From NCBI RefSeq assembly GCF_945956895.1, contig NZ_CAMFJF010000004.1:123927-187926 (forward strand): DNA of 64,000 nt, read 5' to 3'. The position numbers and the translations under genes were made by a program. Source of the DNA: an uncultured Allobosea sp. GTDB taxonomy: Bacteria > Pseudomonadota > Alphaproteobacteria > Rhizobiales > Beijerinckiaceae. The notes beneath the pieces were generated by a model that saw only the letters and a program-made list of their open reading frames with translations, was not told the origin of the DNA and did no database searches. Each line of letters opens with the position of its first letter. The stretch's first letter is position 1. Positions 43,573-54,845 of the stretch are shown piece after piece.

Positions 43573-43683
43573 CCCTCATCCTGAGGAGCGCCACAGGCGC
43601 GTCTCGAAGGATGCTCCAGTTATCACCGGAGCCTCCTGGAGCATCCTTCGAGACGCCGCTGACGCGGCTCCTCAGGATGAGGG
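43573..43683. repeat. Palindromic intergenic repeat, family R3
   Basis: Begins CCCTCATCCTGAGGAGCG and ends GCTCCTCAGGATGAGGG, with inner CGTCTCGAAGGATGCTCCAG / GAGCATCCTTCGAGACG arms. The sister copy is at 12141-12256; the internal arms are nearly identical between them. Confidence 0.88.
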
Positions 43684-43716
43684 CTGTGATGGTTTCATCG
43701 GGGTCATGGGCCAACC

Positions 43717-43742
43717 GGAACCCGGCCGATCCTTCCAGCGTT
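43717..43742 (+). promoter_or_regulatory. EcfG-type promoter (GGAAC-N17-CGTT) of the AI-2E family permease gene
   Basis: GGAAC at 43717-43721 and CGTT at 43739-43742 are separated by 17 bp (GGAACC-N16-CGTT). The -10 ends 41 bp before the ATG at 43784. The pattern is that recognised by the general stress sigma factor EcfG, which is encoded at 51162-51776. Confidence 0.75.
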
Positions 43743-43783
43743 GATCCCTCCGACGCGCCAGGGGGGCGCGGTTCGCGCGTTGG

Positions 43784-44926
43784 ATGCATCTCATGCTCAG
43801 CTCATCGGCCTGGAGGCCGTTTCCGCGCTATAGGGCGGAACCGGAACCGGTGGAGGACAGCGCAGAGGTCACGGCCTCTGAGCATGATCTCATCGTCCGC
43901 TACGCCATCGTCGGCATCTTCGTCATCCTGGCCACGGCCTCGCTGGCCCTGACCAAGGTCATCGCCATGCCGGTCACGGCGGGCGTCATCTTCGGGCTCG
44001 TGCTCGGGCCGCTCGTCGACCTGCTGGCGCGCCATCGCGTGCCGCAGCATGCCGCCGCGGCGCTGGTCGTGCTGCTCTTCATCGGCCTGCTCTTCGGCGC
44101 GATCGCGATCCTCGCCGTGCCGGTCGCCGGCTGGAGCGATCAGGCCCCGGCGATGATGGCGGCGCTTCAGAGCAAGCTCGCCGGCGTCTGTGCCTTCATG
44201 GACGAGTTCAAGCGCGGCATCGCTTCGATCACCGGCAAGGGCGCCGAGCTCAGCGTCTCCCAGGGCAATCCGCTTTTCGACATCGCGCTGACCTCGTCCG
44301 CGGCGGCGGGCGGCCTGCTGATCTTCGTCGCGACGATCTATTTCTGGCTGGCGACGCGCCGCCATCTCAAGGCGCGGGTGCTCAGGCTTTGCCTCGGCCG
44401 GGGTGCGCGCCGCTCGGCCGGTTCCTTCTTCGAGGAGATCGAGGCACGCGTCGCCCGCTATTTCGCGCTGGTGACCGCGATCAATTTCGGCATGGGCGTC
44501 CTGACCATGGCGATCGCCTGGCTCGCCGGCCTGCCCTTCCCGGTCTTCTGGGGGGCGCTGGCCTTCCTGCTCAACTATCTCGCCTTCATCGGCCCGATCT
44601 TCGTCGCGATCCTGCTTCTGGCTGGCGCCTTGCTCGATGCGCCTTCGATCCTCGCCGCGCTCTGGCCGGCGGCGGCCTATTACGTCCTGCACCTGATCGA
44701 GGGCAACGCGGTCACGCCTGTCTTCGTCGGCAACCGGTTGACGATCTCGCCCTTCCTCGTCTTCATCGCCTTCATCTTCTGGCTCTGGCTCTGGGGGCCG
44801 GTCGGGGCCGTGCTCTCGACGCCGATCGTCATCGTCGCCATGGTGGCGCAGGAGGAATTCGCGCGCTATCGCCGCGAAAAGGCCAGGACTGAGGCCGAAG
44901 AGGCCGGTGAAGCCCAGAGCGCCTGA
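43784..44926 (+). CDS. AI-2E family transporter (PerM/TqsA-like)
   Basis: A 380-residue inner-membrane protein; the start is the ATG at 43784 or 43793. It has about eight hydrophobic segments in the family arrangement: an N-terminal pair (YAIVGIFVILATASLALTKV), a long soluble loop with AALQSKLAGVCAFMDEF, and a C-terminal bundle ending FIAFIFWLWLWGPVGAVLST. The family includes TqsA and PerM and also Na+/H+ antiporters, so the transported species is open. An exact EcfG promoter lies upstream, which makes it a likely member of the general stress regulon. Confidence 0.9.
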   Translation: MHLMLSSSAWRPFPRYRAEPEPVEDSAEVTASEHDLIVRYAIVGIFVILATASLALTKVIAMPVTAGVIFGLVLGPLVDLLARHRVPQHAAAALVVLLFIGLLFGAIAILAVPVAGWSDQAPAMMAALQSKLAGVCAFMDEFKRGIASITGKGAELSVSQGNPLFDIALTSSAAAGGLLIFVATIYFWLATRRHLKARVLRLCLGRGARRSAGSFFEEIEARVARYFALVTAINFGMGVLTMAIAWLAGLPFPVFWGALAFLLNYLAFIGPIFVAILLLAGALLDAPSILAALWPAAAYYVLHLIEGNAVTPVFVGNRLTISPFLVFIAFIFWLWLWGPVGAVLSTPIVIVAMVAQEEFARYRREKARTEAEEAGEAQSA

Positions 44927-44935
44927 GGCCTTTCC

Positions 44936-44960
44936 GGAACAGACGGCATGCCGATGCGTT
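44936..44960 (+). promoter_or_regulatory. EcfG-type promoter (GGAAC-N16-CGTT) of the DUF883/holin-like operon
   Basis: GGAAC at 44936-44940 and CGTT at 44957-44960 with exactly 16 bp between. The -10 ends 82 bp before the ATG at 45043. It begins 9 bp after the stop of the AI-2E family gene. Confidence 0.78.
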
Positions 44961-45042
44961 GCCGTGGCAAGGCGGAAGCCCTTGCGGCAACCGCTTCTCC
45001 TCGCCACCATCTCACTTCCATCAGCGACAGGACGAAACCGCC

Positions 45043-45402
45043 ATGGCCACCACGACATCCGCGAAACGTCAGGCTGCCGCCGCCGCCAAACGTGCGAAGG
45101 CTGAGGTCGAGGCCGGCGCCGAGGAGGTCGCAGCCGAGGCGCGCCAGGCCGGAGCCCGCGCCAAGCGTCAGGCGAGCGCGCTCGAGGACACCTTGACCCG
45201 CAGCGCCGAGGACATCGCCGCCACCGTCAGCGAGCGCCTGCGCGCCGTCGGCGTCGACACCGACAAGATGGTCGATGTCGCCAAGGAACAGGCGACCGAG
45301 TTGCAGCGCTTGATCGAGGACGAGATCCGCGAGCGGCCGCTGCGTGCGCTCGGCCTGGCGGCGGCTGTCGGCCTCTTCGTCGGCTTCCTGTCGGCGCGCT
45401 GA
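45043..45402 (+). CDS. DUF883 / ElaB-YqjD-like membrane-anchored protein
   Basis: A 119-residue protein from the ATG at 45043. Residues 1-~90 are a charged, Ala-rich helix with coiled-coil character (KRQAAAAAKRAKAEVEAGAE, LQRLIEDEIRERPLRALG), and the last ~20 form one membrane span (LGLAAAVGLFVGFLSAR). This is the architecture of E. coli ElaB/YqjD, stationary-phase proteins that tether ribosomes to the inner membrane. It is followed 2 bp later by a YqjE/holin-like gene, so the pair mirrors yqjD-yqjE. The EcfG promoter upstream replaces the RpoS control known in E. coli. Confidence 0.85.
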   Translation: MATTTSAKRQAAAAAKRAKAEVEAGAEEVAAEARQAGARAKRQASALEDTLTRSAEDIAATVSERLRAVGVDTDKMVDVAKEQATELQRLIEDEIRERPLRALGLAAAVGLFVGFLSAR

Positions 45403-45404
45403 CC

Positions 45405-45830
45405 ATGTTCGGGGGGATCGGATCCTTCATCGCCTCGGAGGTGTCCGGGGTGGTGAAGCGCAATGTCATCGTCTACGGGCTGTTCGGCCTCGCCGTCCTG
45501 CTCATGCTCTGCGCCGGCGGCTACGCGCTGAACGCCCTGCATACCGTGCTGGAACTGCGCCATGGCGCAGTGGCCGCGAGCCTCTGGATTGCCGGCGGCC
45601 TCTTCGCAGCGGGGCTCCTGGCGATCTGCATCGCGCTTCTCGTCAAGAGCCGCCGCAGGCCGCCGCGCCCGGTCGCGACCGCGGCTCTGGCGGCTGCGCC
45701 GCTGGCGGCCAAGCTCATCGGCTCGCGCCTGAGCTGGCGCATGGCGCTCGCCGGCGGCATCGTCGTTCTCGGCGCGATTCTGGGTCGCCAGATCGTCGCG
45801 GGCGGCGAAGATGATGATGCGGCAGCCTGA
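45405..45830 (+). CDS. Phage holin superfamily III / YqjE-like membrane protein
   Basis: A 141-residue protein with two strong membrane spans (VYGLFGLAVLLMLCAGGYAL and LWIAGGLFAAGLLAICIALL), a basic loop (KSRRRPPRP) and a third hydrophobic stretch (WRMALAGGIVVLGAILG), ending in acidic EDDDAAA. It resembles the putative actinobacterial-type holin/YqjE group found next to DUF883 genes. It starts 2 bp after the DUF883 stop, so they are cotranscribed. A role in membrane organisation under stress is inferred from the E. coli yqjDE parallel. Confidence 0.82.
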   Translation: MFGGIGSFIASEVSGVVKRNVIVYGLFGLAVLLMLCAGGYALNALHTVLELRHGAVAASLWIAGGLFAAGLLAICIALLVKSRRRPPRPVATAALAAAPLAAKLIGSRLSWRMALAGGIVVLGAILGRQIVAGGEDDDAAA

Positions 45831-45909
45831 TTCCGCATCCATTCGCGGCATGGACGAAGCATGTCTTTTTACATAGGGATGTCGGCATGCGTCCCTTAAC
45901 AAGACCTGC

Positions 45910-47301
45910 ATGTCCGCTCAGGTGAGGCCTCGCAACCGCTTTCCGATCCCGGCTTTCCCGGTCATCGGCGCGCGCCTTCGTTCGGCGACATCCACGATCA
46001 TCGCGATCGGGGTCGTGGCGGTCTCAGTGGTTCTGGCGGCCTGGATCAACCAGCAGGCCCGGCAGACGGCGGATCGCGTCTCTCACGCAATCGAGATCCG
46101 CGAGCGGGCCGAACGCTTCCTCGGCCGGATGCGCGACGCCGAAACCGGACAGCGCGGCTTCCTGCTGACCGGAGAGGCCGATTATCTCGATCCCTTCACC
46201 GAGGGCCGGGCCGCCGCGGGCCCCGAGCTCGACATCCTCGCCGCCCTGGTCGATGCGGACCCCGCCCAGAAGGAGCGGGTCGCGGAGTTGCGTCGGGGTA
46301 TGGGCGTGAAATTCGCCGAGCTCGACCGGACGATCTCGCTCGAGCGGGCGGGCCGCCGGCCGGAGGCACTTGCTCTCGTCAAGAGCCAGAACGGCATCGC
46401 CGCCATGGACCGGCTGCGCGATACGGTGCAGGCGATCCAGCAGAGCGAAAACATCCGCCTGATGTCGCTCTATCGCCTCGAAGAGCGCCGCCGCCTCTGG
46501 GGCAGCACCGGCATCGTCGTGGCGCTGGCCGGCCTTGCCTTTGCCGCCTGGCAGCAATTGCGCCGCCGCCAGCGCCGCAGCAATGCGCTCGCGATCAGCA
46601 ATGCGGAGCTCGAGCAGATCGTCGGCGAGCGTACCCGCGAGCTCGAAGGCGAGCGCCTGCGCATCGAGGCGCTGCTGCGCGACGTCAATCACAGGGTCGG
46701 CAACAATCTCGCGATGGTCTCGGCATTGCTGAACGTGCAGAGCCGCCAGACGCGCGAGCCGGCAGTCAAGGCCGCGCTCGCTCAGGCGCAGTCGCGCATC
46801 CAGGCGATCGCGGCCGGGCAGCGGCGGCTGCGCCTGGACATCGAGACCGACGAGATCGATGCCCGGCCCTATATGGAAGACCTCCTCGCCGAGATCGGCA
46901 AGACAGCGGAAGGCCGGCCGATCCGGATCGAGCTCGACATGGAATCGATCCGCCTGCCCGGCCGCGATGCCGTTTCCTTCGTCGTCATCGTCAACGAGCT
47001 GGTGACCAATGCCATCAAGCATGCCTTTCCCGACGGCATGTCGGGGCAGATCATCATCCGCTTCGCGCCAACCGACTTCGAGGGTGAGCCGGCCCTTGCG
47101 ATGTCGATCGAGGATGATGGTGTCGGTATGCCAGCCGAAGCGGGGAGCAAAGGGCTGGGCCAGACCGTGATCGCGAGCCTGCTGCGCAGCATGCGGGCGA
47201 CGATGACCTCCGAGCCGCTCCACCCCGAACAGGCGGAACGTCCGGGCACGCGGGTGGCGATCGTCTTTCCGAAGCGGGAAGCACCGCCCGCTCACGCCTG
47301 A
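45910..47301 (+). CDS. Sensor histidine kinase with CHASE3 domain (HisKA_2/HWE type)
   Basis: A 463-residue kinase. Two membrane spans (near 28-46, ATSTIIAIGVVAVSVVLAAW, and near 195-213) flank a CHASE3 sensor (RAERFLGRMRDAETGQRGFL, LTGEADYLDPFTEG). A short coiled coil leads to the phosphoacceptor DVNHRVGNNLAMVSALLNVQ, which is HisKA_2-like with Gly replacing the usual Lys. The ATPase domain is intact: N box VIVNELVTNAIKHAF, G1 IEDDGVGMP, G2 KGLGQTVI. It probably signals to PhyR-type or single-domain regulators; the response regulator 10 bp downstream, convergent, is a candidate partner. Confidence 0.9.
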   Translation: MSAQVRPRNRFPIPAFPVIGARLRSATSTIIAIGVVAVSVVLAAWINQQARQTADRVSHAIEIRERAERFLGRMRDAETGQRGFLLTGEADYLDPFTEGRAAAGPELDILAALVDADPAQKERVAELRRGMGVKFAELDRTISLERAGRRPEALALVKSQNGIAAMDRLRDTVQAIQQSENIRLMSLYRLEERRRLWGSTGIVVALAGLAFAAWQQLRRRQRRSNALAISNAELEQIVGERTRELEGERLRIEALLRDVNHRVGNNLAMVSALLNVQSRQTREPAVKAALAQAQSRIQAIAAGQRRLRLDIETDEIDARPYMEDLLAEIGKTAEGRPIRIELDMESIRLPGRDAVSFVVIVNELVTNAIKHAFPDGMSGQIIIRFAPTDFEGEPALAMSIEDDGVGMPAEAGSKGLGQTVIASLLRSMRATMTSEPLHPEQAERPGTRVAIVFPKREAPPAHA

Positions 47302-47311
47302 AATCGCGGCG

Positions 47312-47692
47312 TCAGCCCTGCATCGCCTTGAGGCCGGGCAGGCCGATGGCACCTTTCACGAAGGCCGCGACCTCGCGCGTGGAAAAGGGCTTGCGCAGGA
47401 AGCGGATGTCGCGCAGGGCCGCCGGCACCTCGTGAGGCGCGGCGCCCGAGACGAAGACGATGGGCGTGCCGCGCTCCTGAAGGGCGCTGGCGACGTCGAA
47501 GGTCTTGCCGCCGACGACGTCGATGTCGAGCAGGGCGCAGGCGAGCTGCTTGGCGGTCATCCGCCGCGCTTCCGCCACGGATCCGACAACGATCAGCTCG
47601 ACCTCGTCGCCGAATTGCTCGGCCACGGCGCTTTCGATGTCCATCGCGATGAACGGGTCGTCCTCGACGATGAGTACGCGGAAATCAGCCAT
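47312..47692 (-). CDS. Single-domain response regulator
   Basis: A 126-residue receiver with no output domain. The acidic pocket is VEDD, the phosphoacceptor Asp is in CALLDIDVVGG, the Thr/Ser position is FVSG and the Lys is FLRKPF. The layout around GTPIVFVSGAAPHEVP resembles the FAT-GUY receivers of alphaproteobacterial general stress signalling, although the FATG letters are not exact. An exact EcfG promoter lies 44 bp upstream. Convergent with the CHASE3 kinase (10 bp between stops). A phosphate-sink or feedback role toward PhyR signalling is inferred. Confidence 0.9.
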   Translation of the reverse strand: MADFRVLIVEDDPFIAMDIESAVAEQFGDEVELIVVGSVAEARRMTAKQLACALLDIDVVGGKTFDVASALQERGTPIVFVSGAAPHEVPAALRDIRFLRKPFSTREVAAFVKGAIGLPGLKAMQG

Positions 47693-47736
47693 CGACCGGC
47701 CTTCTCACTCACACTGCAATTCCGTCACGCGATCTC

Positions 47737-47761
47737 AACGTGACAGACTTGGCGATGTTCC
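47737..47761 (-). promoter_or_regulatory. EcfG-type promoter (GGAAC-N16-CGTT) of the single-domain response regulator
   Basis: On the minus strand GGAAC (47761-47757) and CGTT (47740-47737) are separated by exactly 16 bp. The -10 is 44 bp before the ATG at 47692. Confidence 0.78.
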
Positions 47762-47859
47762 TGCCTCGGCAGCGTCATCTGGCCGAAAGCGCAGGATTTG
47801 AGTCAATTTTGACCGGTCAAGGTTAGCAAAAGGTAATCCCGTCCCCGCTTTTGGGGGGG

Positions 47860-48354
47860 TCAGCGTCGGCGGCTTCCCGAACGTGTCAAAGTCAGCTCGA
47901 ACTGCGTAACGCCGATGGCGGCATTGAAGCCGCGTAACGTTTGCGCCACCCGCGGCTGGAGCGTGACCTTATTGTCCTCGCCGCCGACAAGCGGCGATCC
48001 GCCAGCGGCCCCGGCCTGAGCGGATGCCGCATAGCTTCCGTTCAACGCTCCCAAGGGCGCCCGTGCGTAAGGCCCGTAGACATGCCACGCCATCCGCGTT
48101 CCGCGGATCGAGCCAAGGTCAAGGCCATATTGGCGAACGATCCCAATATAGTGCTGTGCCGGGCCTCGGCGCGGCCTGAAGCGGCAATCGAGAGGCTTCT
48201 GCGATTTGGCGATGGCGGCGAAGCCGGCGCCCACGGTGCAGGAGAGGCGCCCGGTCGGCGGGCCGGGAGTTTGTGCGGCGGCGGGCTCATGCATTCCTAT
48301 GAAGCCAGCGAGGGCAAGGACAGTTAGGCAGGATCGGGAATGCCCAAGGCTCAT
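47860..48354 (-). CDS. DUF992 domain exported protein
   Basis: A 164-residue protein from the ATG at 48354, which has AGGAG 8 bp upstream (a GTG one codon earlier is possible). Residues 1-~27 are a signal peptide (CLTVLALAGFIGMHEPAAAQ). The mature domain shows the DUF992 pattern: GRLSCTVGAGFAAIAKSQKP, DCRFRPRRGPAQHYIGIVRQ, YGLDLGSIRGTRMAWHVYGP, then SPLVGGEDNKVTLQPRVAQ. Two cysteines may form a disulfide in the periplasm. Function unknown. An EcfG promoter lies 30 bp upstream, arranged back-to-back with another for the divergent small gene. Confidence 0.85.
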   Translation of the reverse strand: MSLGHSRSCLTVLALAGFIGMHEPAAAQTPGPPTGRLSCTVGAGFAAIAKSQKPLDCRFRPRRGPAQHYIGIVRQYGLDLGSIRGTRMAWHVYGPYARAPLGALNGSYAASAQAGAAGGSPLVGGEDNKVTLQPRVAQTLRGFNAAIGVTQFELTLTRSGSRRR

Positions 48355-48384
48355 CACGAATGCTCCTGGTGAACTGGCGGTACG

Positions 48385-48409
48385 AACGCCCCAAGAAACC
48401 CACAGTTCC
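48385..48409 (-). promoter_or_regulatory. EcfG-type promoter (GGAAC-N16-CGTT) of the DUF992 gene
   Basis: On the minus strand GGAAC (48409-48405) and CGTT (48388-48385) with a 16-bp spacer, 30 bp before the ATG at 48354. Its -35 lies only 7 bp from the -35 of the divergent promoter at 48417. Confidence 0.77.
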
Positions 48410-48416
48410 TAAGTAG

Positions 48417-48442
48417 GGAACCAAGGGAGAGTTTGTAGCGTT
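48417..48442 (+). promoter_or_regulatory. EcfG-type promoter (GGAAC-N17-CGTT) of the small gene at 48459
   Basis: GGAAC at 48417-48421 and CGTT at 48439-48442 with a 17-bp spacer (GGAACC-N16). The -10 lies just before the cluster of ATGs at 48459-48473. The TTG start at 48441 in the ORF track would fall inside the -10 box, so it is excluded. Confidence 0.7.
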
Positions 48443-48458
48443 GGCGTTTCATCTTGGC

Positions 48459-48710
48459 ATGGGAATGTCGATGGCCGTGAGTCGTCCTCTTGGGGAAACC
48501 CCAACAATAATCGATCCGGAGTTCCTGCCGGCGTTGCCGCCGTTCTGGGAACTGGAGGATCTGATCGCCACGGGCCTCGCATGCGAGACCGCGCTTGCGG
48601 TCATGGCTGCGCGGCGTAGCGGCCTACGGCTTGTCGGCGGCATCGCGTCGCCGGACGACGACAACGAGTTGCTCCTGCTGCGCTTCCGTCCCGCCGACAT
48701 CGCCCACTGA
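48459..48710 (+). CDS. Hypothetical small protein, likely general stress regulon member
   Basis: Up to 83 residues; ATGs at 48459, 48465 and 48471 are all possible. The sequence has TIIDPEFLPALPPFWELEDL followed by an Ala-rich helix (IATGLACETALAVMAARRSG) and ends DDDNELLLLRFRPADIAH. No signal peptide, membrane span or known domain was recognised. The EcfG promoter directly upstream and the tight convergent placement (6 bp) against the extensin-like gene support it as a real gene. Confidence 0.6.
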   Translation: MGMSMAVSRPLGETPTIIDPEFLPALPPFWELEDLIATGLACETALAVMAARRSGLRLVGGIASPDDDNELLLLRFRPADIAH

Positions 48711-48716
48711 GTTCCG

Positions 48717-49820
48717 TTACTGGCAGAACCGGGACGCCGGCGAGCGGCGCTCCTGGATGTCGACATGCAGATGGTCGGCATGGGCAGCATCCGAGCCCGG
48801 CCCCAGCGTGGTCATGAAGGCGCCGCAGGCCGATTGCCTGATCGCATCGAGAAAGCGGTTCTGCGCCAGCCCCTGCGGCTTCTCGACCGCGACCTGGACC
48901 GCTTCCGCACCACTGCCCAGCTTGAAGGCGAAGATATCCAGCGCCTGGCCGGTGGCATGCTCGCTGACCGGGCCGGCCGAGGCCCGGTTGCGCCGCCGGC
49001 ATTCAAGACCGCCGCCGACACGCAATGCGACGAGGTCGCGCTCGAAATGGCCACGCGCCAAGGGCTGGACGCTGCGGTCGAGCCAGTCGGCGAGCGTCCG
49101 GGCCATGGCACAGCTCAACAAGGGTGGAGGCTCGAAGAAGACGGTCGCCGAGCCCGCCTGTCCCCTGATGGCGAGCGCCTCGACGCGGACCGGCTCGCTG
49201 ACCCGACAGGCAGGGTCGCTATCCTGTGGTGCGGGAGTGGCCGCCGTCACCCGATTGCCGGGGATGGTTGCCAGCGAGGTCAGGCATGAGGCCTGAATGG
49301 GCGGCGTCGCGGTGTCGTCGGAGCGCGATGGTGTCGGGGCGGCAGGCCGCGCGGTCGTCTTTCCCGTCTCCTCTGGAATGGACGGTCGCCATTCGGGTGG
49401 CCGGGATGGCGGCTGCTGTCCGGAGATCGGAGTAGCGGCTGGGGCCGCAGTGCCGCCGGTCGGGGCGAGCCAGAGGCTGATGGCGATCGCCAGGGGCGCC
49501 AGAACCCGCTTTCCCGGACGATGGCGGGCCGTCCCGCGACGAAGCCTCGCTCGCCCGATCCGGCTCCGCGCATGCAGGATCGATGAATGCGCCTGGGCGG
49601 ACTCGAGGGGAGGATCGCTTAGCTGTCCAGGGCCGAGGCGCTGGCGATCGTGATCCCGGTCAGGCCTGCCAGCGCGAGCGACAGGATCTCTGCGCTCGGC
49701 GCCCCCGGTTGCACCATCCCGGAGAAGAGAGCTGCTCCGATCGATAGCGCCGCAATCGCGGCCGAGAAGCAGGTCGTCGCCATGGTCCACGCCCTCCCCA
49801 ACTGCAAACGAAACTGTCAT
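48717..49820 (-). CDS. Extensin-like C-terminal domain protein, start uncertain
   Basis: The C-terminal ~170 residues match the extensin-like domain of alphaproteobacteria: ACRVSEPVRVEALAIRGQAG, LLSCAMARTLADWLDRSVQP, GPVSEHATGQALDIFAFKLG and HADHLHVDIQERRSPASRFC. An N-terminal signal anchor is visible in the same frame (RVLAPLAIAISLWLAPTGG, about 49450-49510), followed by a Pro-rich linker. There is no ATG, GTG or TTG in frame between 49790 and that anchor. The ORF-track start at 49820 overlaps a well-supported small gene in another frame and would be almost leaderless from the EcfG promoter. A rare start codon or a base error near 49573 is possible. Confidence 0.72.
   Translation of the reverse strand: MTVSFAVGEGVDHGDDLLLGRDCGAIDRSSSLLRDGATGGAERRDPVARAGRPDRDHDRQRLGPGQLSDPPLESAQAHSSILHARSRIGRARLRRGTARHRPGKRVLAPLAIAISLWLAPTGGTAAPAATPISGQQPPSRPPEWRPSIPEETGKTTARPAAPTPSRSDDTATPPIQASCLTSLATIPGNRVTAATPAPQDSDPACRVSEPVRVEALAIRGQAGSATVFFEPPPLLSCAMARTLADWLDRSVQPLARGHFERDLVALRVGGGLECRRRNRASAGPVSEHATGQALDIFAFKLGSGAEAVQVAVEKPQGLAQNRFLDAIRQSACGAFMTTLGPGSDAAHADHLHVDIQERRSPASRFCQ
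49619..49783 (-). CDS. Small hydrophobic protein (54 aa)
   Basis: From the ATG at 49783, with GGAGG 9 bp upstream, the best ribosome site in this stretch. The 54 residues hold two hydrophobic segments (TTCFSAAIAALSIGAALFSG and ILSLALAGLTGITIASASA) separated by MVQPGAPSAE, so a small double-span membrane protein is likely. It is the first gene after an EcfG promoter, with the extensin-like gene following. No family recognised. Confidence 0.6.
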   Translation of the reverse strand: MATTCFSAAIAALSIGAALFSGMVQPGAPSAEILSLALAGLTGITIASASALDS

Positions 49821-49829
49821 TCAACGCGG

Positions 49830-49854
49830 AACGCATCATTTCCGCACAGGTTCC
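49830..49854 (-). promoter_or_regulatory. EcfG-type promoter (GGAAC-N16-CGTT) of the 54-aa gene and extensin-like gene
   Basis: On the minus strand GGAAC (49854-49850) and CGTT (49833-49830) are 16 bp apart. The -10 is 46 bp before the ATG at 49783. It lies just beyond the phyR terminator, in the same direction as phyR. Confidence 0.78.
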
Positions 49855-49865
49855 CGGAGACAAGC

Positions 49866-49894
49866 AAAAAGGCCCGCAGGCTGGCCGCGAGCCT
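49866..49894 (-). terminator. Rho-independent terminator of phyR
   Basis: Read on the minus strand, AGGCTCGCGG and CTGCGGGCCT pair over ten positions with two G-U wobbles, followed by TTTTT. It lies 27 bp after the phyR stop codon. Confidence 0.8.
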
Positions 49895-49921
49895 TGAACA
49901 TCTTCGAACGGCGTCGAAGCG

Positions 49922-50716
49922 TCAGGCGGCCTTGCGGCCGGCGCGGCGGTCGAAGAACAAGGCCTGGCTGATCGCCGCCTTCACGGCCTCCGGCTGGAAC
50001 GGCTTGGTGATCAGGAAGGCCGGCTCCGGCCGGTCGCCGGTCAGGAGCCGTTCGGGATAGGCGGTGATGAAGATCACCGGCACGTCGATCGAGGACAGGA
50101 TTTCGTTGACCGCGTCGAGTCCCGAGCTGCCATCGGCGAGCTGGATGTCGGCGAGGACGAGACCGGGGCGCTTCTTGGCGACGAGCGCGATCGCCTCGCG
50201 CTGCGTGCGGGCAACGCCGGTGACGCTGTGGCCGAGCTCCTCGACCATCGTCTCGATGTCGAGTGCGATGATCGGCTCGTCCTCGATGATGAGGACTTCG
50301 GTCGCGACCTGCTCGGCGATTTCCTGGCCGGCGGTCTGGATCAGCGCGGACGCTTCGGCGGCCGTGATGTCCATGACCTCGGCGACATCGTCGAGCGGGA
50401 AGCCCTCGACCGTCCGCAGCAGGAAGGCCTGGCGCGGGCGCGGCGTCAGCGCTTCCAGATTGCGCTCGGCCGGCGGGCGCGAGAGCTCGACGACCGGCGC
50501 GGCGGCATCGACGCTGGCCGAGGACCACAGCTTCAGGAAGGTCTTGTAGAGGCCGACGCGGGGATCGATGTCGCGTGGGAAGCCGCTGGGATCGGCGACG
50601 AGCGCTTCGAGCATGGCGACGACATAGGCGTCGCCGCTCGGCTGGCTTCCGCAGAGCGCCCGCGCGAAGCGGCGCAGATACGGAAGATGAGGCGCAATTT
50701 CTTTTGCAATCGACAT
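49922..50716 (-). CDS. phyR: General stress response regulator PhyR
   Basis: A 264-residue protein from the ATG at 50716 (MSIAKEIAPHLPYLRRFARA); the 496-residue ORF-track version is a run-through. Residues 1-~130 are the sigma-like (EcfG-mimicking) domain: ARALCGSQPSGDAYVVAMLE, TPRPRQAFLLRTVEGFPLDD and VAEVMDITAAEASALIQTAG. Residues ~140-255 are the receiver: VLIIEDEPIIALDIETMV, phosphoacceptor in VLADIQLADGSSG, VIFITAYPE, FLITKPF. Phosphorylated PhyR binds NepR and frees EcfG. Divergent from nepR. I saw no EcfG-type promoter in front of it. Confidence 0.97.
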   Translation of the reverse strand: MSIAKEIAPHLPYLRRFARALCGSQPSGDAYVVAMLEALVADPSGFPRDIDPRVGLYKTFLKLWSSASVDAAAPVVELSRPPAERNLEALTPRPRQAFLLRTVEGFPLDDVAEVMDITAAEASALIQTAGQEIAEQVATEVLIIEDEPIIALDIETMVEELGHSVTGVARTQREAIALVAKKRPGLVLADIQLADGSSGLDAVNEILSSIDVPVIFITAYPERLLTGDRPEPAFLITKPFQPEAVKAAISQALFFDRRAGRKAA

Positions 50717-50793
50717 GAACGCGTCCCTTTTAGCGTGCCGAAATAATGGCTTAGGCTGCGCGAGAGACAAGAAATTTATTTTTTCTGGGTCGT

Positions 50794-50818
50794 GGAACCT
50801 TGTCCAGTAAAGCCGGTT
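50794..50818 (+). promoter_or_regulatory. EcfG-type promoter (GGAAC-N16-GGTT) of nepR-ecfG
   Basis: GGAAC at 50794-50798 and GGTT at 50815-50818 with a 16-bp spacer; the -10 differs from CGTT at one base. It lies 135 bp before nepR in the phyR-nepR gap, giving the usual positive autoregulation of the sigma factor operon. The 5' leader would be unusually long among the sites found here. Confidence 0.6.
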
Positions 50819-50953
50819 ATTAAGGCGCATTGGTGTCGCCATCGCGACGTGGCTTCGGCGTCGCCGGCAGGACGTGGCAAGACCTGAGATGGTGGAATTC
50901 GAGAATGCGGGATCGGCTGGAAAAGCCGGCCCGGTGGTGGTGCGAGGGCTGAC

Positions 50954-51175
50954 ATGAATAGGTTGGATGCAGCGATGACGGAACCGGACGATCCCGATGA
51001 AGGCTTCGATCTGGTTCTGGACCCGAAGGTGCAGGAATCCATTGGCCGCTCCCTCAAGGCCCATTACGACGACATCGTGAACGCACCCGTGCCCGACAAG
51101 TTTCTCGTGCTGCTCGCGCAGCTTGAGGCGACCGAGCAGCGTGCAGCTGGAGCGTCGCGCGATGAGTCCCAGTGA
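50954..51175 (+). CDS. nepR: Anti-sigma factor NepR
   Basis: A 73-residue protein with the NepR core QESIGRSLKAHYDDIVNAPV and PDKFLVLLAQLEA, the two helices that grip EcfG or PhyR. Start at the ATG at 50954 follows GAGGG. NepR holds EcfG inactive until phospho-PhyR takes it away. Its end overlaps the ecfG start by 14 nt, coupling anti-sigma and sigma synthesis. Confidence 0.95.
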   Translation: MNRLDAAMTEPDDPDEGFDLVLDPKVQESIGRSLKAHYDDIVNAPVPDKFLVLLAQLEATEQRAAGASRDESQ

Positions 51176-51776
51176 TACCGTCCCTGCGAACGGGGTCGAG
51201 TCTCTGGCGCAGGAACGCAGGACCGAAGATTTCAAGGACGGGCTGATCCGCGAGATTCCCAACCTGCGCGCCTTCGCCGCCTCGCTCTCCGGCTCCATGC
51301 AATTGGCTGACGACCTCGTGCAGGACACGCTGCTGAAGGCCTGGGGCAATTCCGACAAGTTCGAACCGGGCACCAGCCTGCGCGCCTGGCTCTTCACCAT
51401 CCTGCGCAACACCTATTACTCGCTCTATCGCAAGCGCGGCCGCGAGGTGCAGGACAGCGAGGGGACCTATGCCGAGCGCATGGCGACCCATGGCAACCAG
51501 GAAAGCCATCTCGATCTCGCCGATTTCCGCAAGGCGCTGGCCAAGCTCCCCGAGGAACAGCGCGAGGTGCTGATCATGGTCGGCGCAACCGGGCTGTCCT
51601 ATGAGGAAGCGGCGGAGATCTGCGGCGTCGCGATCGGCACGATCAAGAGCCGCGTCAATCGCGCCCGCACCAAGCTGGCCGAATTGCTGTCCATCGGCAG
51701 CGTCGACGATCTCGGGCCGGGCCGTACCAATGCGGCTGCGATGCAGAGGGTTGGTACGGAACCCGTTGGCTCCTGA
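51162..51776 (+). CDS. ecfG: General stress ECF sigma factor EcfG
   Basis: A 204-residue ECF sigma factor from the ATG at 51162. Region 2 is visible as SMQLADDLVQDTLLKAWGNS and LRAWLFTILRNTYYSLYRKR, and region 4 as ALAKLPEEQREVLIMVGATG and YEEAAEICGVAIGTIKSRVN with ARTKLAELL. It lacks extra C-terminal domains, as usual for this group. It directs RNA polymerase to GGAAC-N16/17-CGTT promoters, nine of which I find within 8 kb. It overlaps nepR by 14 nt and the downstream kinase gene by 1 nt. Confidence 0.96.
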   Translation: MSPSDTVPANGVESLAQERRTEDFKDGLIREIPNLRAFAASLSGSMQLADDLVQDTLLKAWGNSDKFEPGTSLRAWLFTILRNTYYSLYRKRGREVQDSEGTYAERMATHGNQESHLDLADFRKALAKLPEEQREVLIMVGATGLSYEEAAEICGVAIGTIKSRVNRARTKLAELLSIGSVDDLGPGRTNAAAMQRVGTEPVGS

Positions 51777-53431
51777 TGCGTTTGCGGCGTTTCAGCACTG
51801 TCAGGGCGCGCCTGCTGGCTCTGCTGGTCGTGATCGCCATACCAATCGCCTGCGCCTCGGCCTTCACGGCTTACGCGACCTATCGGGCCGCGATCGTCGC
51901 GATCGAGGCGGCGCAGGCGCGTGCCGTCGATGATTTCGCGGTGCGCACCCGCGTCTGGTATCGCGGCATGTCGCGTGCCCTGCTCGCCTTCGGCACCACG
52001 GCGGGCGAACTCGGCCTCGACACGGCCGGCTGTCGCGATGCCGGCATCAAGGCGATGGAGCGGGCCGGCGGCTTCCGTGCCTTTCTGCTGCGCGGCGTGG
52101 ACGGCCATGTCTGCGCCGGGGCGCTCGATCCGGATCTGTCCGCCGAGAGGCTGGACGGCTTCGCAAGGCAGCTGGCGAGCCGGCCCGTCGTTGGGATGTG
52201 GAACGGCGCCGATCTCGGCCGGATGCGCTACGATCAGGTCACCGCGGGCGGGCGGCGCTACCTCGCCATCCTGGCATCGGATTTTCCCAACGCGGGTGGT
52301 CGCGGCTTGCAGCAGGCGTTGCTGCTCACGGCTCCCGATTTGCTCGAGAGTGTCTTCGATCTCGGCGAGGACGGCCAGGGCCTGAACGTCGCCCTGGTCG
52401 GGCGCGATACCGGCGTCATCGCCAGCCGCGGAGACGATCGCGACATGTCGTGGCTGCCGCGCACGGACCGGATTCCCGAGAAACACGCGCGCTGGACCGC
52501 ACCGAGCCGGGCCGGAGAGGATAACACCTACGCCGCCCGGATGGTCGCCGAGCCGGATTTCTACATCGTTGCGAGTTTCGACGATCGGCCGGCGGAGGCC
52601 GCACGGCTGCAATTCATCGCGCTGCTGCTTGCGCCGCTCCTCACCTTGGCCCTGCTCTGCCTCGTCTGCATGAGGGCGATCGAGAAGCACTGCCTGCGCT
52701 GGCTGCGTGGCATCGAGATGGCTGCGCGGTCGCGGACCTCCAGCAACCGGGTCAGGGCCTCGGTCGCCGACGGCATGCCCAGCGATATGCGCAGCGTCGC
52801 GGAGGCGTTCAACGGCATGGTCGAGGAGCAGGAGGTGCGCCAGCGCCGCCTCCAGACAGCGCTCGACGACAACCGTTTCCTCGTTCGCGAGCTGCATCAC
52901 CGGGTCAAGAACAGCCTCCAGGTCGTGCAAAGCTATATCGGGCTGAGCAAGCGCGACCATCGCGACGAGGCGCGGCTGGCGCTCGCCGATGCCGAATGCC
53001 GGGTGCATGTGCTCTCCGCTGCCTATCGTTTCACCCTTGCCGATGGCGAGATGCAGCCGGTCCGTGTCGACCTCTTCCTCGATGATGTCGTCACCATGAT
53101 CGCGAACCTGATCCGCAGCCGCGACCAATGGGTGACGAGCCGGATCGAGACCGCCGCGACGCTCTCGGTCGACAGGATCATCCCGCTCGGCTTTCTCGTC
53201 GCGGATGTCGCCTCGCGGGCCCTGCGCGGTACGCCGGGTGTCCGGATCGCGGTGGAGGTCGTGGATGTCGATGATTCAGCGATCGAGGTTGGCCTCGAAG
53301 CCGATCGTGAAATCCAGCACAGCGCCCCGCCACGGCTCTTCGCGGGTTTGCTCACCCAGGTCGAGGCGGTGCAGACGCAGGAGCCGCATGATCGCAGCCT
53401 TGGGCGCTGGCGGATCGCTCATGGCTCCTGA
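51776..53431 (+). CDS. PhyK-like sensor histidine kinase with degenerate ATPase domain
   Basis: A 551-residue membrane protein overlapping the ecfG stop by one base. Two spans (near 10-35, LLALLVVIAIPIACASAF, and near 280-303) enclose a periplasmic sensor, followed by a HAMP-like linker. The phosphoacceptor segment VRELHHRVKNSLQVVQSYIG is intact HisKA_2. In the next domain the N-box position reads IPLGFLVADVASRALRGTP where a working kinase has a NELVTNA-KHA pattern, and no DDGxG G1 box is present. The protein therefore probably cannot bind ATP in the normal way. It may act as a phosphotransfer hub or phosphatase for PhyR. Confidence 0.88.
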   Translation: MRLRRFSTVRARLLALLVVIAIPIACASAFTAYATYRAAIVAIEAAQARAVDDFAVRTRVWYRGMSRALLAFGTTAGELGLDTAGCRDAGIKAMERAGGFRAFLLRGVDGHVCAGALDPDLSAERLDGFARQLASRPVVGMWNGADLGRMRYDQVTAGGRRYLAILASDFPNAGGRGLQQALLLTAPDLLESVFDLGEDGQGLNVALVGRDTGVIASRGDDRDMSWLPRTDRIPEKHARWTAPSRAGEDNTYAARMVAEPDFYIVASFDDRPAEAARLQFIALLLAPLLTLALLCLVCMRAIEKHCLRWLRGIEMAARSRTSSNRVRASVADGMPSDMRSVAEAFNGMVEEQEVRQRRLQTALDDNRFLVRELHHRVKNSLQVVQSYIGLSKRDHRDEARLALADAECRVHVLSAAYRFTLADGEMQPVRVDLFLDDVVTMIANLIRSRDQWVTSRIETAATLSVDRIIPLGFLVADVASRALRGTPGVRIAVEVVDVDDSAIEVGLEADREIQHSAPPRLFAGLLTQVEAVQTQEPHDRSLGRWRIAHGS

Positions 53432-53493
53432 GGCCCGCGGGCTTCCCGAGAACGCTGTCGTGCCGGATCACGCGGAGGAATCCGATGCACAGC

Positions 53494-53590
53494 CGTCATT
53501 GCGAGCGTAGCGAAGCAATCCAGGGGACTGGGCCGAACCGCTCAGCCCAGTCCCCTGGATTGCTTCGTCGCTTCGCTCCTCGCAATGACG
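53494..53590. repeat. Palindromic intergenic repeat, family R2
   Basis: Same design as 2495-2593: GTCATTGCGAGC, then AAGCAATCCAGGGGACTGGG paired with CCCAGTCCCCTGGATTGCTT, ending GCAATGACG. The outer parts are near-identical between copies, while the inner stem varies with compensating changes on both sides. Confidence 0.88.
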
Positions 53591-53620
53591 GCCTTACGCC
53601 TCAGTCCGGTCGAGCATCGT

Positions 53621-53902
53621 TCAGCGAACGATATGCGTGACCGGCCCCTCGGCCATCGCCTGCTGCGAGGGCGAAGCGATGGCGCGCTTGGCGGCGCTGC
53701 GCGAGCGGTCGGAGCGGTCGACGGAGGCCAGATGCAGGCTGTCTGCATAGCCGGTCTCGCCCTTGGCGAGAGCAACGGATGTCGAGCTCTGGTCGGCCGG
53801 CATCTGGAGCCCGGCGCCGAGCGTCAGGCCCGTGACGGCCGCGCCCATGAGGCCGAAGAAGACGATGGCGCGCATAGCCGGCGCGAGGCTGGACTTGAGC
53901 AT
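53621..53902 (-). CDS. Small membrane-anchored or secreted protein (93 aa), general stress regulon candidate
   Basis: From the ATG at 53902 with GGAG 6 bp upstream. Residues 1-~30 form a signal peptide or anchor (MRAIVFFGLMGAAVTGLTLG); the rest is hydrophilic (LAKGETGYADSLHLASVDRS, AIASPSQQAMAEGPVTHIVR). No domain recognised; similar short proteins may be restricted to close relatives. The upstream EcfG promoter is exact, with its -10 50 bp before the start. The ORF-track lines 53601..54854 and 53621..54247 are read-throughs of the promoter region. Confidence 0.68.
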   Translation of the reverse strand: MLKSSLAPAMRAIVFFGLMGAAVTGLTLGAGLQMPADQSSTSVALAKGETGYADSLHLASVDRSDRSRSAAKRAIASPSQQAMAEGPVTHIVR

Positions 53903-53952
53903 GGATGTCTCCGCGGGCTGGCCGGCCGATTTGGCCGGCTGTCGCAATGGAA

Positions 53953-53978
53953 AACGCTCGAAAGCCCGTTTCGGTTCC
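53953..53978 (-). promoter_or_regulatory. EcfG-type promoter (GGAAC-N17-CGTT) of the 93-aa gene
   Basis: On the minus strand GGAAC (53978-53974) and CGTT (53956-53953) with a 17-bp spacer (GGAACC-N16-CGTTTT). The -10 is 50 bp before the ATG at 53902. Confidence 0.8.
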
Positions 53979-54014
53979 CCTCCCGGCACGCGGGCCGAGT
54001 CTCTCCTGTCGCTC

Positions 54015-54040
54015 CGGAACGCGGAGCGCCTCGACCGCGT
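54015..54040 (+). promoter_or_regulatory. EcfG-type promoter (GGAAC-N17-CGTT) of the Crp/Fnr gene
   Basis: GGAAC at 54015-54019 and CGTT at 54037-54040 with a 17-bp spacer. The -10 ends 49 bp before the ATG at 54090. It is back-to-back with the promoter of the divergent 93-aa gene. Confidence 0.72.
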
Positions 54041-54089
54041 TGTCCCCCGAGCCGGGTCTCGGCCGGCGCCAGGGGGATTGAATTCGATC

Positions 54090-54845
54090 ATGAACATCGC
54101 CAGTCGGCCGGGACGTCTCGGCACGCCATGCCTCGCCTGTCCCTTGCGGCTGAAACCTGCCTTCCGGGACAAGAGCGATGATGAAATCCGTTTCATCCAG
54201 ACGATGAAGGCCGACCATCGGTTCGTGCGGGCCGGCATGGACATCATCCATCCCGGGCAGGAGGATGCGGAGCTCTACACGCTCTTCTCGGGCTGGGCCT
54301 TCCGCTACAAATCCTTGCCGGACGGGCGGCGCCAGATCCTCAACTTCCTCTTGCCGGGTGATCTCGTCGGCCTGCAGGCGTCGCTGCTCAGTGCCGCCGA
54401 GCACGGGATCGAGGCGCTGACCGATGTCGAGCTCTGCGTCTTCCCGCGCAAGCGCCTCTGGGACCTCTTCGTGGGGATGCCGACGCTGGCCTACGAAGTC
54501 TCCTGGCTGGGCTCGCGCGAGGAATGCATGGTCGACGACAATCTCACCTCGGTCGGGCAGCGCAATGCCGGCGAGCGCATCGCCGCGCTGATCATCGCGC
54601 TCTATCACCGGGCCGATGCGCTCGGGCTCGTCACCAATGGCAGCTTCGCCTTCCCGCTTTCGCAGCAGCAGATCGCCGATGCGCTCGGCCTCTCGCTCGT
54701 CCACACCAGCAAGACCTGGTCGCGATTGCGCCGGGAAGGACTGTTCTCGCTCGCGGCAGGCAGGCTCACCCTGCTGAATCCGCGCCTGACGGCACGGATG
54801 GCCGCTGCCTACGAGCAGATCACGGCGCCGCGGCCGCTGATCTGA
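54090..54845 (+). CDS. Crp/Fnr family transcriptional regulator
   Basis: A 251-residue regulator from the ATG at 54090. The N-terminus has two cysteines (GTPCLACPLR). The cyclic-nucleotide-binding-like barrel covers ~35-150 (HPGQEDAELYTLFSGWAFRY, LLPGDLVGLQASLL). The winged-helix domain includes FAFPLSQQQIADALGLSLVH and TSKTWSRLRREGLF. The two Cys are too few for an FNR [4Fe-4S] site. It belongs to the FixK-neighbour Crp group common in Rhizobiales. An exact EcfG promoter upstream suggests it relays the stress signal to a second tier of genes. Confidence 0.9.
   Translation: MNIASRPGRLGTPCLACPLRLKPAFRDKSDDEIRFIQTMKADHRFVRAGMDIIHPGQEDAELYTLFSGWAFRYKSLPDGRRQILNFLLPGDLVGLQASLLSAAEHGIEALTDVELCVFPRKRLWDLFVGMPTLAYEVSWLGSREECMVDDNLTSVGQRNAGERIAALIIALYHRADALGLVTNGSFAFPLSQQQIADALGLSLVHTSKTWSRLRREGLFSLAAGRLTLLNPRLTARMAAAYEQITAPRPLI

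Follow-up and report, generated by a model that had tools for sequence, protein, structure and literature searches.

A Bosea general stress response locus that probably forms a local EcfG regulon, with a putative compact phosphorelay and no EcfG promoter before phyR

The window analysed here, a 64,000-nucleotide stretch of contig NZ_CAMFJF010000004.1 from an uncultured Allobosea sp., contains the sigma factor gene ecfG, its regulators nepR and phyR, and nine predicted EcfG-type promoters within about 10 kb. This segment (the island) is very probably the locus from which Bosea controls its general stress response (GSR), organized as a local regulon, with the relay and feedback described below. 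Because its arrangement is conserved in Bosea and recurs in related genera, the locus is real and recognizable as an enlarged version of a known general stress locus rather than as a new system. Noteworthy are how many neighboring genes the local regulon takes in, how compactly the relay is encoded, the lack of an EcfG promoter before phyR, and a handful of uncharacterized stress genes. For little-studied genera, the ecfG neighborhood offers a set of genes that are likely to belong directly to the stress regulon, including members of no known family (54-, 83-, and 93-aa proteins and a 141-aa membrane protein), and the proposed SdrG-PhyT-PhyR relay is gathered in one cloneable segment.

Gene identities, motif excess, conservation, and a degenerate ATPase domain were observed directly; EcfG dependence, the order of the relay, the feedback, and the mode of phyR expression were modeled on other species. 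Under the proposed mechanism, stress would cause HWE-family kinases, probably including the one encoded at 45910, to phosphorylate an SdrG-like regulator, from which the phosphoryl group would pass via a PhyT-like protein to PhyR. PhyR would then capture NepR, freeing EcfG, and EcfG RNA polymerase would fire the nine promoters in 10 kb. The predicted output consists of envelope, small-protein, and Crp/Fnr targets together with a few dozen targets elsewhere in the genome, while nepR-ecfG-phyT and the SdrG-like regulator would be renewed by EcfG promoters. Bosea phyR is probably made constitutively. Since phyR has no EcfG promoter, feedback would target the sigma/anti-sigma pair together with the relay but would bypass PhyR, which bears on the question of feedback in this response: Bosea appears to induce its sigma factor pair and relay proteins, and not PhyR.

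Exact matches to GGAAC-N16/17-CGTT numbered nine in the window, every one within 43717-54041 (a 10.3-kb stretch), whereas dinucleotide shuffles of the window averaged 0.45 matches and yielded at most 3. Eight of these are predicted promoters, with N17 spacing on the plus strand before genes for an AI-2E permease (43717..43742), an 83-aa protein (48417..48442), and a Crp/Fnr regulator (54016..54041); with N17 spacing on the minus strand before a 93-aa gene (53953..53978); with N16 spacing on the plus strand before a DUF883 gene pair (44936..44960); and with N16 spacing on the minus strand before genes for a single-domain regulator (47737..47761), DUF992 (48385..48409, divergent from the 83-aa promoter), and a 54-aa protein followed by an extensin-type protein (49830..49854). 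Allowing GGTT added the predicted nepR-ecfG promoter (50794..50818, plus strand, a GGAAC-N16-GGTT variant) and a mirror match at 49828, which shares bases with the 49830 site. A prior sequence-only reading of this DNA had listed nine such sites, eight with exact CGTT and that at 50794 with GGTT. All nine were recovered as described and correctly oriented, with approximately 16 to 135 bp between the end of the −10 box and the start codon, and the gene identities it assigned agreed with Pfam and family searches. Its coordinates were accurate except for 54015, the true position being 54016, and it had overlooked a ninth exact match at 51758..51782 on the plus strand, which spans both the stop codon of ecfG and the ATG at 51776 that begins the following gene. 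This match was rejected as a promoter of that kinase-like gene and treated as background, because its −10 box lies inside the gene, downstream of the ATG, and none of the Bosea relatives examined has the site; it is probably a nonfunctional chance match.

The density of the motif was compared with that in the whole genome (4.9 Mb in 161 contigs), for which statistics were derived from pattern searches and the stretches around matches. Exact matches totaled 77, of which 68 lay outside the island. The outside sites predict 0.14 matches per 10.3 kb against the 9 observed, a 63-fold excess (Poisson P about 6e-14), and no second stretch of ~10 kb contained more than three matches among the listed sites. 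The sequence-only reading depended on motif density being higher here than elsewhere in the genome, and it withstood this comparison. A backwards control pattern matched 88 times genome-wide; because GC-rich coding DNA makes this control a weak null model, gene position was used instead, with genes called by a simple codon-usage gene caller. By this measure, 32 of the 68 distant matches were intergenic and no more than 250 bp before a correctly oriented start, as compared to 8.2% of random positions (∼5.6 expected), corresponding to an excess of about 26 promoter-like sites outside the island. Given this intergenic, start-proximal excess, roughly one in four strong-consensus promoters falls in the island, which makes up 0.2% of the genome, and the remaining regulon is scattered as expected. 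Genes behind distant sites include those for a LysM-BON protein, DUF3309, a pyridoxamine-oxidase-like protein, a transglycosylase-associated protein, a uracil-DNA glycosylase family protein, and a cyclopropane fatty-acid synthase-like enzyme. A second divergent pair of EcfG motifs was seen at L113 1501-1563 (G000 C12:8654-8716), before genes for a pyridoxamine-oxidase-like protein and a small membrane protein, and a similar pair occurs in genome G012 at C1:2179373-2179433.

Conservation was assessed in the EcfG loci of nine relatives (seven labeled Bosea and two Rhizobiales isolates resembling Bosea) and a complete genome of the same genus (L154). The DUF992, 83-aa, and 54-aa/extensin promoters were present in 10/10 Bosea loci, as was the divergent arrangement of the first two, and the single-domain regulator promoter was present in nine of the ten. 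The 93-aa gene promoter was found in all nine loci covering that region, the DUF883 promoter in 5/5 loci with the gene, and the AI-2E promoter in 4/4. Spacer identity between orthologous promoters was 0.39–0.61 (0.42 for the 49830 promoter), in a comparison where the boxes were identical by selection. When the phyR-nepR gap was aligned without box selection, GGAAC and GTT were invariant in 11/11 Bosea sequences, and the first −10 base was C, G, or T. The sequence-only reading had proposed a check of synteny in related genomes; in Bosea, the promoters proved conserved, with fixed boxes and drifting spacers.

The core switch is well defined. PhyR, a response regulator and anti-anti-sigma factor (49922..50716, minus strand; PF22029, PF22233, PF00072), aligns over its full length with known PhyR structures (4g97 and others, E 1.2e-93). 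The anti-sigma factor gene nepR (50954..51175, plus strand; PF18557, E 4.4e-14) encodes the sole NepR in the genome, matching the NepR chain of structure 3t0y. The extracytoplasmic function (ECF) sigma factor gene ecfG (51162..51776, plus strand; sigma r2 and r4 domains, PF04542 and PF08281) overlaps the end of nepR and is directly followed by the kinase-like gene. As is characteristic of ECF15/EcfG loci, a sigma r2/r4 gene lies right after nepR, PhyR with its sigma-like and receiver domains is encoded nearby, and the motif before nepR-ecfG (GGAAC-N16-GGTT) supplies a predicted EcfG-type promoter. Both phyR and nepR-ecfG are usually EcfG-driven (PMC8103513; PMC4814048), although an EcfG promoter before phyR is usual and not strictly defining (PMC4814048). 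Here, no EcfG-type site was found before phyR within one mismatch in the window, and in the corresponding interval an exact minus-strand site was present in 0/9 Bosea loci versus 49/71 other Hyphomicrobiales loci. A hidden EcfG promoter for phyR was considered and rejected, as relatives yielded only nonconserved one-mismatch matches, in two of them. The phyR-nepR gap (50717-50800) contains a conserved AT-rich tract adjoining CTTGTC. As a suggestion only, these elements may be a housekeeping promoter; a generic sigma-70 scan gave no support for a specific phyR promoter.

PhyR is accompanied by proteins resembling each tier of a known phosphorelay. The island encodes a CHASE3-HisKA_2/HWE histidine kinase with an HRVGN motif and an intact ATPase domain (45910..47301, plus strand; PF05227, PF07568, PF02518) and an SdrG/MrrA-like single-domain response regulator (47312..47692, minus strand), for which the closest solved structure is SdrG (5ieb, E 8.4e-11). 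Searching SdrG against the whole genome returned the island regulator as best match (39% identity, E 1.3e-10) and, as the only other match, PhyR. The gene following ecfG (51776..53431, plus strand) encodes a membrane HisKA_2/HWE protein of PhyT/PhyP type (PF07568 without HATPase_c) that is conserved in Bosea. PhyP and PhyT retain HRxxN and have a degenerate ATPase domain (PMC5898713). The island protein likewise is a membrane protein at the phyR locus that keeps HRxxN (HHRVKN), and alignment with the intact kinase showed that its N- and G-box regions are gone, consistent with assignment to this type. With PhyR, a PhyT-like protein, an SdrG-like regulator, and an intact HWE kinase identified within about 8 kb, the island potentially encodes a whole kinase-SdrG-PhyT-PhyR phosphorelay plus its output, in which the order of transfer would follow that of the related systems.

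Motif clustering around ecfG extends well beyond Bosea. Across 80 EcfG loci from Hyphomicrobiales (1.58 Mb), 420 motifs were found versus 29 matches to the backwards control, with density highest at distances of up to about 4 kb from ecfG and down by 9 to 10 kb. When one locus per genus label was considered, 32/34 had at least three motifs (CGTT or GGTT) within 7 kb of ecfG, and Mesorhizobium loci reach eight to ten, like Bosea. NepR loci of more distant alphaproteobacteria showed a weaker signal: 18 loci gave 68 versus 10, and few of them exceeded six motifs. The sequence-only reading was accordingly correct about density and promoter conservation, but not in treating a compact island as unusual; where it had set a usually scattered regulon against a compact island, this genome has both, 32 of its 68 distant matches being promoter-like. 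A literature search, which did not cover older subscription reviews, turned up no account of a local regulon with multiple promoters around ecfG. The gene families bearing motifs near ecfG were DUF883 (37/46, the family being present in 46 of the 80 loci), DUF1328-like (41/57), CsbD-like (10/12), DUF992 (8/9), and PRC-barrel (15/22), whereas transport and metabolic neighbors had no or almost no motifs; names of clusters beyond those scanned with Pfam reflect a reading of their sequences. The distance and orientation of motif-bearing families relative to ecfG vary between genera.

These patterns could reflect passive ancestry, that is, old ecfG neighbors retained without present advantage, an explanation compatible with the proposed mechanism. 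In favor of passive retention, gene order inside the Bosea island is largely conserved, and alphaproteobacteria generally have nepR, phyR, and ecfG close together (PMC8103513). Between genera, however, DUF883, AI-2E, CsbD, and DUF992 genes lie near ecfG at varying distance, side, and orientation with the motif kept, as if order had been reshuffled and membership kept or regained; passive ancestry is accordingly considered unlikely, though it retains appreciable weight. The alternative is that the Hyphomicrobiales EcfG locus is a selectively maintained regulon island, with DUF883 pairs, DUF1328-like, CsbD, AI-2E, and PRC-barrel genes within ∼7 kb in varying order and orientation under their own EcfG promoters. 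Stress genes would have been kept or repeatedly recruited, and the Bosea island would hold the whole phosphorelay with phyR outside the feedback. Taken jointly, these propositions are put forward tentatively, at slightly less than even probability.

Several observations weigh against the proposed Bosea control locus in its full form. The Crp/Fnr promoter was present in only about half of Bosea loci. No EcfG motif was found in a scan upstream of the 45910 kinase gene, and in several Bosea relatives this kinase was not detected within 10 kb of ecfG. The island regulator carries PIVFVSGA (PF[AV]FVSGS in most Bosea) and not the PFxFATG[G/Y] of SdrG and MrrA; the regulator is therefore described as SdrG-like and was not filed as FATGUY. 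Finally, two EcfG-like sigma factors without their own NepR, ∼35% identical to EcfG and encoded on other contigs (G000 C15:92779-93234 and C24:15512-15970), could share the island promoters. The promoters might be real but recognized chiefly by a different sigma factor, for example an EcfG paralogue such as these, and use of several EcfG proteins has precedent in R. etli and M. extorquens (PMC3892343, PMC4814048). This explanation is nevertheless improbable: the motifs center on the ecfG locus across Hyphomicrobiales, nepR-ecfG itself has a motif, the genome's only NepR is encoded in the island, and paralogues of such low identity may not be ECF15. Chance or composition, in which GC-rich intergenic DNA happens to match a short motif, draws on the genome-wide count being no higher than the backwards control and was rejected as having practically no likelihood, given the shuffles, the local density relative to the rest of the genome, the boxes kept in relatives while spacers drift, and the clean separation of motif-bearing families from nonbearing neighbors across the 80 loci.

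The locus now proposed as a local regulon resembles PhyR-NepR-EcfG (ECF15) loci of Alphaproteobacteria in its nepR-ecfG operon with an EcfG-type promoter, divergent phyR, and adjoining HRxxN histidine kinase protein (PMC8103513, PMC4814048). Unlike the usual ECF15 locus, it has nine motif-bearing transcription units in 10 kb and a phyR without an EcfG promoter. The PhyT-like protein at the phyR locus, the SdrG-like regulator, and the HWE kinase are reminiscent of the Pak-SdrG-PhyT-PhyR system of Sphingomonas melonis Fr1 (PMC5898713). The genes for SdrG and the kinases lie scattered in the S. melonis genome (PMC5898713), whereas in the island the SdrG-like and HWE kinase genes lie within ∼6 kb of ecfG, and a VSG variant replaces the FATG motif of SdrG in the regulator. 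As in the MrrA-PhyK-PhyR system of Caulobacter (PMC5964349), a single-domain regulator is a putative phosphorylation hub upstream of PhyR; its motif differs from that of MrrA, and the transfer protein in the island is PhyT-like and probably co-operonic with ecfG. At the R. etli ecfG1-phyR-tcrY-ReC64 locus, EcfG-dependent transcripts adjoin the core switch, an arrangement predicted for the island, and the mapped start of one R. etli transcript fits the motif (PMC3892343). The R. etli neighbor is a small RNA (PMC3892343), whereas the island has protein genes on both sides.

From left to right, the island encodes the AI-2E permease, DUF883 and a small membrane protein, the CHASE3-HWE kinase, the single-domain regulator (minus), DUF992 (minus), the 83-aa protein, the extensin-type protein behind the 54-aa protein (both minus), PhyR (minus), NepR-EcfG and the kinase-like protein, the 93-aa protein (minus), and the Crp/Fnr regulator. 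The AI-2E family transporter gene (43784..44926, plus; PF01594, E 1.9e-36) is followed by the DUF883 (ElaB/YqjD-like) gene (45043..45402, plus; PF19029, E 1.3e-7), which probably forms one operon with the gene for a holin-like, YqjE-like partner (45405..45830, plus) that had no Pfam or NCBIfam match. A family of 145-aa membrane proteins resembling this partner occurs in 49/80 EcfG loci, none with its own motif. The DUF992 gene (47860..48357, minus; PF06186, E 9.1e-29) is divergent from the 83-aa gene (48459..48710, plus), which has homologues detected in nine of ten Bosea loci and a product with no family match in Pfam or NCBIfam searches.

Among the genes behind the 49830 promoter is one with an extensin-like C-terminal domain (48717..49573, minus; PF06904, E 6.9e-43; start uncertain, the open reading frame [ORF] reaching 49820). 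The first gene downstream of the promoter is a conserved ORF for a 54-aa hydrophobic protein (49619..49783, minus), which is 87% identical in one relative (L031), where the extensin ORF is 56% identical. The 54-aa ORF is probably the true first gene of the extensin transcription unit; the upstream extension of the extensin ORF overlaps it (49619-49783). At the right end lie the 93-aa gene (53621..53902, minus), whose product likewise had no match in Pfam or NCBIfam searches and which has the motif before 7/7 clustered homologues, and the Crp/Fnr-family regulator gene (54090..54845, plus; PF00027, PF13545). Two repeats were also noted: a paired palindromic repeat at 43575-43685 (ATCCTTCGAGACGC...CCTCAGGATGA) with 152 matches in the genome and an inverted repeat, CGTCATTGCGAGCGNAGCGAAGCAATCCAG, at 53490-53595 with 98 exact matches genome-wide.

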